Below, piece after piece: positions 2,143 to 11,900 of a stretch of DNA of 64,000 nucleotides. The stretch lies in contig WBMV01005052.1 of the NCBI GenBank assembly GCA_013396655.1, positions 62,001-126,000 of the forward strand. Reading direction: 5' to 3'. The notes beneath the pieces are model-generated. The model was not told where the DNA came from. It saw only the letters and a program-made list of their open reading frames with translations, and ran no database searches. This stretch comes from Campylorhamphus procurvoides. Taxonomy: Eukaryota; Chordata; Aves; Passeriformes; Dendrocolaptidae. The position numbers and the translations under genes were made by a program. Numbering within the stretch: position 1 is the stretch's first letter; each line of letters starts with the position of its first letter.

Positions 2143-2966
2143 CTAATCCAAGGAGAGTGGAGCTGAGGCACTGCCTTCTACATTTAGGATTTGTGAACTT
2201 TCTCTTGCAAGACTCTGTTTTGGTTTTTTTAAGAAAGTTCCTGCTTTCTGGGTACTCACAGGTGAATCCCTAATGGACATGTTTACAGCCTGATGAATGA
2301 GGGGCTCATCAGACCTCATGGGAAGATACATTTGATCCTCAAAAATATCTTCCACAGTGTCACCATCCTGATGAGGGTCTTTTTGAGGAATGCTGATGGG
2401 CTGTAGCATGAAGCTATGCCTGGACTCCAACTCTATCAAACCATTTCCACTGAAATCCATATCAAAACGGTCCGATTCTTTATCCTCCATCCATTTTTCA
2501 GCTTGATGACTATTTTTCCAGTGTGCGTCATTCAAACTACTTTTCTCAGGAATAACATTGTTTAATTCAAGTTTCCTCTCCTGACTTAAAGTCACTGTGC
2601 TCAAAGCAAGGGCTGCAAAGTCCGTTGGCACAATCAGCTGCAATTCTTCTGCAGTCAGGCCACTCGATTCTTCAGCAGAAGTCATTTCCACCAAGGTAAA
2701 TGGTGTGGATGATTCATCTCTGTCCCCATTGCTTCGAGCAGTGTTATCCTTGTCTGTTTTATTTTGCTGGTAGTAACTGTTCAGCAGTGCAAACATTCTA
2801 TCTACATCCTTCAAGTAATTAGTCCAGTCAGCCAGACTAAGTCTAAAGTTGTATCTGTATTCATATACACTTTCATTCACACTGTACAAGTCTTCCAGTC
2901 CTTGCCAGTCAATGTCGCCAGTGAAACTGGGTAGGTTAGCCTTCCCATCCATCCCATAACTGTCCT
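2143..2966 (-). CDS. SULF1: Candidate alternative SULF1 C-terminal tail (274 aa) read when the 34-nt exon is skipped
   Basis: If the exon ending at 9110 (one base, G, left over) is joined directly to 2966, the terminal exon reads [14 protein letters not shown] and stays open for 274 codons to a TAG at 2145-2143. The product begins Trp/Tyr-rich (DIDWQGLEDLYSVNESVYEY, then RLSLADWTNYLKDVDRMFAL), passes through an acidic, Ser/Thr-rich middle and ends GSASAPLSLD. Sequons NES, NKT and NMS are present, compatible with a secreted protein. A start codon at 2952 in GGGATGG context also begins this frame. I recall a similar string from the mammalian SULF1 locus but cannot verify it. The open frame and splice phase are seen directly; use as protein is inference. 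Confidence 0.6.
2936..2966 (-). CDS. SULF1: SULF1 terminal exon, coding part for the standard C-terminus
   Basis: Acceptor ttctttcaacag before AGGACAGTTA. With the two bases from the 34-nt exon it reads [10 protein letters not shown] and a TAA stop (2938-2936), the conserved end of vertebrate Sulf1; SULF2 ends in a similar QLWEGWEG as I recall. The exon then continues as 3' untranslated sequence to lower coordinates. Confidence 0.96.
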
Positions 2967-8900: not shown

Positions 8901-11900
8901 CGTTGTTTGCCATCAATATCTGTCGAGAATAACCTGTGCAAACCCTCCAAGAAGCTTTCTGGTCATGTGATTGTGTAGGTGTATATGGATCATTCCAAAC
9001 TACTCTGAGCAACACTTAGGAGATTGACACTTCATGCATGTCATTAGTACTTCAGTAGATGCAAAAAACAGGAATAAAATGGGAAAAAGCACTACTCTTT
9101 ATCTTGTACCTGTTTCAAGTCCCTTTGGCCTCGGATTGCACTGCTTGTAACCTTGACAACTGCGCAGTTCCATTAGCTGTATGTGCAATTGATTCAAAAT
9201 GCCTCTTTCCACTGTGTGTACTGTGTTGGTCAGCTGAGAAAGAGGGGAACAGAAGGAAACAATACTTGTTAACAGAAATAAAAACAAAAACAAAACCAAA
9301 ACCAAAAACAGAGGAGTCAGGTGAACAACATTTTGTAACAGGGAATGGGGTTTACCTGATAGGGATCAGTGTTCATATCAAAATATTCCAAGAAGCCAGT
9401 TGCAAACTCACAAAAGAGAAAATTGTGCGTGTCATTAACTGTTCGCAAACACCAGTAAGTGTTGTTATTCGAGCTTGTGCAAGCACAGAAGGAGCCCACT
9501 GTAATTAAAGGAACAAGTTATTAGTTTTCAGTGAAAACTTCTACTAGTCTAATTCCAATGATAAAATATAAACATTGCCTTATATTTTTATTTAGATTTA
9601 TGTAGATTTGAGTACTGTGATTGGTTGTAACAATATCAACATTTTGAACAAATTTCATAAAAATAGTAATGGCATTATAAAACATTAATAATGAATAGTA
9701 ATGGTATTGTAATACATTAGCTCTTTTTTAAATTATGGACTATGTCAGAATGCACAGCAATATGAGAACTCTTTTCATAACTGTTTGTTACTCCACAGTT
9801 TAAAAGTAATTAGCCAATTTAATTATTGTCTTTAAAACATGCATATGATTACTTAAGGTAATTTTAAAATGTAAAATCCATATTAGCAGAAGTCCTAGTG
9901 CAATCAGAATAGACTACCACTAGGAGACAATTTCTCCTAATGAAAAGTTGTTCTTAGCAAATTTTTTGCTTGGAGTCAAATATGTTGTAACTTAATGGTC
10001 ATCTGATCTTTAAGAGGTTTTTGAAAGTAAAGTTTTCAATCACTTTTCTTTCTCCACCACCAAAGATGAGAATGGTAATTTTTCTGTTAATGTAGAATAT
10101 TGAAAAATGTTGAAGCATGCCTCAACAGGATAGTTATATATATACCCTGATGTTTAGAGAGACTTAAAATATCTTTTACCTCTAATATTTTGTTCATATA
10201 CACCATGTGGGCACTACACAATTGTGATTTTAAAATTATTTTAGCATATAGAAAATGGGAATAAGAGGATGAATTCAAAAGGGAAAATAACTGCATTTTC
10301 GTTGTGATCAGTTGTTTATTATACACTTTGAAATAAAAACATTAAAATTAAAGTAGACCTTTTATGTGCTGAAGTTTGTGACAGCACTAAAGGTCAAAAC
10401 AATGCTTCTATTTTTACAGTGGAATAACTGTAATAAAAGCAGAGGATAACCTGGATCACATCTGCACGTGGATATAAGACTTACAGTTCCAGAATGGTGC
10501 TGTTTGCCAGTGGTTGTTGTCATGGGTAAAACACGTCAGTCCAGGCAGGCTACACTCATCTCCTTTCTTCTGGCGCCTTTTCCCCTTCCTTTCCTTCTTC
10601 CTTCTCCGGTTCTCTTTGAACAGCTGCAGTTTACCATCCACTTCCTGTGCTGCTTCTCTGTTTAGAGAGGAAGTTGGGCATGACTGACTAAGAACAGAAT
10701 GGTTAACAACAGCACCAGCAGTTTTTGTGTCTTTCTGGCTTTTTTAAAGGTGTGAGGATGAGAACATGACCTGCTAGCTCAGCGTCCACCCCAGCTGTTG
10801 TGACAACGTGCTCCCTTCTGCAAGCATGAGAAATCATGCACTGCTGCATTATGTTTAAAGGGATATTTTTAAAAACCGGAAATCTTAATAGGTTTGAAAA
10901 TTATGCATAAACTTTCACAAGTCAGTCCAAAACTACTGAATGTTTCTTGTGAGAGCTTGCTACATGTGACCTTTACTTTGCCTCACCCTCTCCCTTCCTC
11001 TATACACAAAACCCTACACCAAAACCCCAAAGAAAAACCCACCAAATCCCAAAAACTACCTTTCTCCAGTCATCAAAAACCCAAACTGTGACAATGAGAG
11101 GATAATAACAATCTTACTTGAAGGGATGAAGATGGCTCTTGAGTTTCTCTTGGGCCTTCACCCCTTTCTCTTTGTTGTAATAGCTACAGGGAAAATTATT
11201 AGGAATTATTAAGTCATTATTTTCAACACAAAACTAAAACAGAAACATACTATCTTTGGCATTTTCTTAAGAAACTATGCAGAATGACTTACAATTTTCA
11301 GTTCATTTAAGAAAGTTAAATCTATGTGAATGATCCTATGCTAGGTCGTAGCAAAACTACAGCTGGATTAAAAATGTTAGTAGCATACAAACATATTAAT
11401 CTTAAAATGTTAAAAACTGCCTTCTTATGATTCACAGTAGCTTCTGCTCATAAAATGTATTGGACTAAAATAGGTACCTACAGTGGTTATAAATATCAGT
11501 AAAGCTTAGGTTCTTTATTTTCCATCTCAAAACCCCTGGAAAATGTGTAAGCCTCAGAAATCAGTGTATCTTTCAGTACTGGATGCCACCTCTCTTACCT
11601 CTGTTTGCTACAATCACATTCATCTGGTTTTCTTCTTTTTAAGTGTCCTCTAACTTCCCTCAGATTCTTAATTTTGTCTTGGAGAGCTTCGATCTGCAGA
11701 GAATATTTCCGAGTCAGAATTATTCTTGGAAAAGGTAGCAGTGCAAAGACTTCACTCAGATTTTAAAATACCTCTTACCTCCTTATCAATGTAAGCCTTG
11801 TGGTCCTTCCAGGCCCTGGCAGACTGGTACAGCTCCCTCTCACAGTGAATAGTGTCATTTGGGAGAATAAAACATCTGTAGACATGAGTTTAACAAACAG

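Follow-up and report, generated by a model that had tools for sequence, protein, structure and literature searches.

The window analysed here is a 64,000-nucleotide (nt) stretch of the genome of the passerine bird Campylorhamphus procurvoides (contig WBMV01005052.1, positions 62,001 to 126,000), and its minus strand carries the 3' part of the bird Sulf1 gene. In a tblastn comparison of the Manacus candei protein (P0001) with the window, residues 58-846 aligned in order from 59743 down to 9111, which places the Sulf1 coding exons at 59743-9110, and the C-terminal tail of the protein aligned at 2976-2146; identities were 64-100% per alignment, the low values including over-extended ends. The domains PF00884 and PF12548 (Sulfatase and DUF3740) are found in Sulf1 order in P0001, for which they had been precomputed, and the exons of the window match P0001 in order. 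Here, we describe an alternative 3' end of this gene at which skipping of one small exon very probably gives access to a conserved coding tail. Positions are those of the window.

Results

The exon preceding the switch (9233-9110, minus strand; LTNTVHT...PRPKGLET) is 124 nt long, lies between AG and GT and has one base left over, as the initial annotation had read it. It is followed by a penultimate exon of 34 nt (8212-8179, minus strand), again with AG and GT flanks, and by the terminal exon, whose acceptor lies at 2966, directly after TTTCAACAG. Inclusion of the 34-nt exon restores the frame of the short Sulf1 ending, which is 10 residues long and followed by a stop; the junctions and frames proposed for it are exact. 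Skipping joins 9110 to 2966, and ...LET is then continued by 274 residues ending in SAPLSLD, with the first tail codon spanning the junction. Exactly as predicted, this frame runs to 2143 (2966-2143, minus strand, stop included); measured from stop to stop it comprises 281 codons and begins 7 codons before the acceptor. About 32 nt (2966-2935, minus strand) are read in two frames, either as the short ending and its stop or as the first tail residues. Because each of the two exons leaves one base, the tail frame is entered whenever exactly one of them is omitted, whereas omission of both leads to a short dead end. As a general rule, stops in the last exon escape nonsense-mediated decay; this is where the new stop is placed, and the mRNA should accordingly be spared. 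For coding 3' untranslated regions (UTRs) that are accessible by splicing, PMC7392665 asks for a penultimate exon not divisible by three, a stop in the last exon and a gain of at least 20 residues upon skipping, at least 10 of them in the 3' UTR. Here, the skipped penultimate exon is not divisible by three, 274 residues are gained and all but about the first ten lie past the short stop.

The terminal exon was put through 3000 dinucleotide shuffles, none of which was open over 273 codons (mean 14, longest 111); the same held for 3000 shuffles of the tail itself (longest 170), in line with the initial expectation that a random stretch would rarely stay open for so long. The remaining two frames of the tail stretch contain 20 and 27 stops. 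The position-specific base composition of the tail (period-3; chi-square 33.8) exceeded that of each of 160 equally long non-coding windows taken from the same 64-kb window (mean 5.6, maximum 21.6). When the tail was allowed to diverge neutrally to 39-51% identity in simulations, about 6-7 stops arose on average and 1-2 at the fewest (60 runs).

A query with the tail region retrieved 143 proteins, mostly named extracellular sulfatase Sulf-1. Among the 120 listed, the closest tail was that of Manacus candei (95%), and identities were 80-95% in birds, 66-73% in turtles and the gavial, 50-61% in squamates, 56-58% in marsupials, 43-50% in placentals, 43-53% in amphibians, 49% in the coelacanth and 42-43% in sturgeons. 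The tail of a sturgeon as query gave 44 proteins, including those of gar, bichirs, eels, cyprinids, catfish, sharks and rays, and the C terminus of a basking shark protein, which included some residues before the tail, gave 157 (120 listed); the three match lists overlap. With fishes other than the coelacanth the bird tail shares 33-42% identity. Lamprey, invertebrate and Sulf2 proteins were absent among the matches listed, no search having been aimed at Sulf2 itself. The tail ends annotated Sulf-1 isoforms of birds, reptiles, mammals, amphibians, the coelacanth, ray-finned and cartilaginous fishes, and these long proteins across jawed vertebrates support the earlier claim of one gene with two C termini. 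In several species, e.g. Manacus, Latimeria and Elgaria, the long form is named without an isoform label and therefore may not be the minor one.

For alignment, 108 database sequences were picked for spread from 145 identifiers and combined with the window tail (109 rows), clades being assigned from organism names. The tail frame has one start and nearly one end and is open from sharks to birds. At least 90% of the rows share a single residue in 37 of the 273 tail columns, 23 of which fall within residues 4-61 and the others at 96, 133-139, 158, 172-178, 211-214 and 263-265. As two frames overlap at roughly the first ten residues, the conservation there may partly stem from the short ending; dual-frame reading cannot account for conservation beyond them. 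The only Pfam match of the tail, P2_Phage_GpR (E 0.0061, 17.1 bits, below the cut-off of 25), was taken as chance, and a sequence search of the PDB with the full-length protein P0004 gave 65 matches, none of the best 60 having its best stretch in the tail.

In 103 of the 108 database rows the tail directly continues the exon before it, the one that ends here at 9110 (98 found by pattern and five, P0067, P0073, P0111, P0112 and P0121, by eye). A different joint is seen in P0066, P0097, P0116 and P0122, and the tail start is missing in P0123. In the proteins of panda (P0097) and sterlet (P0122), DPYQ-EIK(T/M)EEAM...TE precedes the tail, which corresponds to the product of the window when the 124-nt exon is skipped and the 34-nt exon kept (9356 to 8212-8179 to 2966, minus strand). 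This second route to the tail frame was seen in only these two gene models among 161 proteins; both also show that the 34-nt exon is present in a mammal and a sturgeon. The short ending, read here from the window sequence, is presumably found in other species too. A minor variation concerns the joint itself: in P0071, P0099 and P0101 the ED at the tail start is preceded by one additional A or V, and in 17 of the 98 pattern rows the gap to the tail is longer by one residue. A tandem acceptor lying three bases upstream would have this effect, as would a shifted donor. The CAACAG before the acceptor in the window offers no such upstream AG.

One protein, P0109, contains the whole enzyme and the tail in 1115 uninterrupted residues encoded by a contig of 4251 bases, with ...KGLEV followed directly by EDSYG. 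We take its source label, 'lgn', to denote assemblies of public reads. Since the exons span more than 57 kb here, this contig from another species is most simply a spliced transcript, the alternative being a processed retrocopy. In mouse, primers flanking the penultimate Sulf1 exon, with a shorter product upon skipping, were given in 2020 (PMC7392665). The forward primer reads YKQCNPRP in one frame and the complement of the reverse primer, likewise in one frame, reads ASNIDEYR, consistent with the ...EYR of the tail; only this translation was used, because an ungapped alignment of that primer with the tail DNA of the bird matched at only 15 of 26 bases and at an untrusted place. In the same survey 3233 mouse transcripts are of the kind in which skipping leads into the 3' UTR, 2152 of the exons are skipped in one tissue or more, and 380 frameshift isoforms are identified unambiguously by peptides (PMC7392665). 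The suggestion in the initial annotation that the switch may be partly described already was correct, as the mouse primers show.

The tail as a whole is acidic (isoelectric point 4.48, net charge about -23); an acidic middle had been noted initially. Residues 1-66 contain two Trp and eight Tyr, the initial annotation having described a Trp/Tyr-rich head. It contains 12 prolines in 273 residues and neither a cysteine nor a PxxP motif; some cysteine is found in 24 of the 109 rows. The three predicted N-glycosylation sequons (N-x-S/T) are indeed present, at tail residues 30, 68 and 228. The first, N-E-S (2877-2875, minus strand), is conserved in the alignment in 22/24 birds, 4/4 turtles and gavial, 16/17 squamates, 6/6 marsupials, 17/23 placentals, 7/8 amphibians, the coelacanth and 16/19 ray-finned fishes and is found in 0/6 cartilaginous fishes. 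An AlphaFold model of the tail alone (109 sequences) had a mean predicted local distance difference test score (pLDDT) of 48.5. It shows a predicted helix at residues 44-78 (2835-2731, minus strand; block means of 70, 87 and 76 over residues 41-70) and a short one at residues 20-26; judged by the low confidence elsewhere, the tail outside the helices is predicted to be largely disordered. A full-length model of P0001 (51 sequences; mean pLDDT 32.3) was discarded: it is uninformative on contacts between tail and body because the sulfatase domain failed as well. At the N68 sequon (AAT AAA ACA) the tail frame contains an AATAAA (2763, minus strand) that, if used for polyadenylation, would cut the tail and leave the short ending untouched; further signals are AATAAA at 1634 and 586 and several ATTAAA. 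The window holds a single ambiguous base (N), at 53195.

Three serines of the tail are candidate sites for attachment of a glycosaminoglycan. The main one is S172 in S172-G173-N174-G175 (MDFSGNGL; 2451-2440, minus strand), where SG is found in 106 of the 109 rows: SGNG in 78, SGND in 20, SGDG in six, SGNS in one and SGDS in one, the commonest core being DFSGNG and SGxG being present in 84 rows. The three other rows have NGND (one squamate) or FENT (two amphibians). SGNG occurs in 24/24 birds, 6/6 marsupials, 15/23 placentals (SGDG in six more), 16/19 ray-finned and 6/6 cartilaginous fishes. Within the seven positions before S172, at least one acidic residue is present in all 106 SG rows and at least two in 100, with D or E at -2 in 76. 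The second candidate is S101-G102 (EESSGL; 2664-2659, minus strand) and the third E263-G264-S265-A266 (2178-2167, minus strand), a conserved EGS(A/G) with E263 in 104, G264 in 102 and S265 in 104 of the 109 rows. In the 108 tails of at least 200 residues, the mean count per tail was 1.04 for SGxG (shuffles, 0.085) and 2.26 for S-G close to acids (shuffles, 1.0), related sequences being counted separately; 86 of the 108 have SGxG somewhere.

Xylosylated serines typically precede glycine and lie near acidic residues (PMC8418075). According to PMC2531186, the acids lie N-terminal of SGxG, and the importance decreases from the serine to the first glycine, the second glycine and the acids. In the scheme of PMC10424144, sites of urine proteins are all in disordered or low-complexity domains and are ranked GSG > SG > GS/SA. 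Residue 172 conforms to such a core-protein motif (Ser-Gly, at best SGxG, with acids N-terminal) and is placed in predicted disorder, residues 148-174 and 180-196 having a pLDDT below 50. In human Sulf2 a chondroitin/dermatan sulfate site has been mapped to S559, in ...DKDGGDFSGTGGLPDYS..., with the core DFSGTG (PMC10721642). The likeness of DFSGNG to this core, together with the preceding acids, fits a glycosaminoglycan attachment signal.

Discussion

The exon junction, the open frame, its conservation from sharks to birds and the SG motif are features of the sequences themselves. Taken together, they make it very probable that Sulf1 has a conserved coding tail that is reached by exon skipping; this estimate leaves aside whether the tail carries a sugar chain. 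In this bird, inclusion of both exons would give the enzyme with its short ending. Regulated skipping of the 34-nt exon, or of the 124-nt exon instead, would cause the terminal exon to be read in the other frame and add the 274-residue tail. Sulf1 is a secreted enzyme, an extracellular 6-O-endosulfatase, and from this identity the tail is expected to be secreted with it; the switch would most likely exchange a short ending for an acidic, flexible and glycosylated extension.

Several points weigh against this reading. The codon-usage score separates the tail frame (0.029) only weakly from the other two (-0.013 and 0.016), and the best frames of the non-coding windows (mean -0.065, standard deviation 0.036) reach 0.075. 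In 39 pairs, the type of amino-acid change (mean BLOSUM) did not differ consistently from neutral simulation; z ranged from -1.0 to 3.6, and the highest values, in birds and the gavial, were not taken as support. The tail also evolves faster than the Sulf1 body (82% versus 97% identity in duck, 42% versus 77% in the shark protein P0141). Finally, the aligned rows are open by construction because they are predicted proteins, and relatives with a closed frame would hardly be found by such a protein search.

With respect to function, we tentatively propose that skipping of the 34-nt exon makes Sulf1 a proteoglycan, with chondroitin or heparan sulfate at DFSGNG, perhaps also at the serines of ESSG and EGSG, and that the chain tethers or restrains the enzyme. 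Judged by its resemblance to known sites, the serine at tail residue 172 could plausibly, if far from certainly, carry such a chain, which would change the spread of Sulf1 and the strength of its action on heparan sulfate. There is a precedent in human Sulf2, the sister endosulfatase, which has the same D-F-S-G-x-G core and in which removal of the chain raises the activity on one heparin motif; its site is part of the hydrophilic domain within the main protein (PMC10721642), whereas the candidate site of Sulf1 lies in an alternative C-terminal tail. Two facts weaken the proposal of a chain. In squamates the site reads SGND (16/17) or NGND (1/17) and it is lost in two of eight amphibian rows; moreover, SG is also present in the Sulf1 body, at 468 (TEDASGKL) and 498 of P0001, the former in at least 38 of 51 rows and the latter varying.

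The squamate sequence, which breaks the second glycine of SGxG, would rather suit a tail that is selected for protein-binding motifs without a chain, the SG island and the helix anchoring Sulf1 at the cell surface or on a partner. A conserved helix and several short islands within a fast-evolving stretch would be compatible with such motifs. However, the acids before the serine in every SG row and the likeness to the Sulf2 site fit a chain signal better, and we regard binding motifs alone as possible, if somewhat unlikely.

It is less likely still that the tail is made but is mainly destabilising, so that skipping would lower the amounts of Sulf1, as put forward for frameshifted C termini in PMC7392665. 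That work covers the same splice class and the same gene, and the predicted disorder of the tail would be compatible with instability. In the available part of the paper, however, instability is tied to proline-rich, PxxP-bearing tails without general conservation, whereas the Sulf1 tail is not proline-rich, has no PxxP and is conserved to sharks.

The poor separation of frames by codon usage and the lack of clearly conservative substitutions would also be compatible with a conserved 3' UTR that contains regulatory RNA elements, in which case the open frame would be a by-product and skipping mere splicing noise. Against this stand the frame that is open from sharks to birds, the period-3 signal and the stops that accumulate under neutral simulation; in addition, no described Rfam family was found within positions 1-10000 of the window. 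We consider this explanation very unlikely. An independent downstream open reading frame starting at the ATG of tail residue 5 was rejected as extremely unlikely, since this Met is not conserved (85 of 109 rows; Thr in 18, Lys in five, a gap in one) and the tail is attached to the enzyme in annotated proteins.

The skip and the long isoform are not new as such, because the isoform is in databases and the mouse skip has been put to the test by others. Among the papers listed in searches of the open-licence literature of PubMed Central (PMC) for a long Sulf1 form, only PMC7392665 bears on the skip, and no account of the conservation of the tail in jawed vertebrates or of its attachment motif was found there. 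The acidic, mostly disordered nature of the tail with a retained S-G motif looks new. In Sulf1, as in the coding 3' UTRs of PMC7392665, omission of a penultimate exon that breaks the frame prolongs the protein into a supposed 3' UTR; the model gene of that study, U2af26, has a tail without overall sequence conservation, as far as its available part goes. Splicing also determines the presence of a glycosaminoglycan site, SGSG, in CD44, where exon v3 is, unlike the Sulf1 exon, a variable stem exon of the in-frame type, reported only in mammals and without a frame shift of the terminal exon (PMC2531186). The short variants of Sulf1 and Sulf2 arise by alternative splicing of the same genes as well; they are shorter and inactive and lack exons 6, 7, 8 and 18, and the accessible part of PMC8999074 gives no altered C terminus for them.

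Another precedent of splicing that decides on a chain is APP, whose isoforms without exon 15 are known as appican. Through its editing of heparan sulfate, Sulf1 modulates growth-factor signalling. If sharks and birds have both retained the tail from their common ancestor, constructs that end in GQLWDGWEG represent only one of two forms of the enzyme, and part of the supposed 3' UTR of Sulf1 is coding. If, in addition, the tail bears a chain, differences between Sulf1 and Sulf2 could be tested through a single splice choice and a single serine. A sugar chain would in that case act as a regulator of both Sulfs of vertebrates: for Sulf2 this would hold in the main form, for Sulf1 as a result of splicing.

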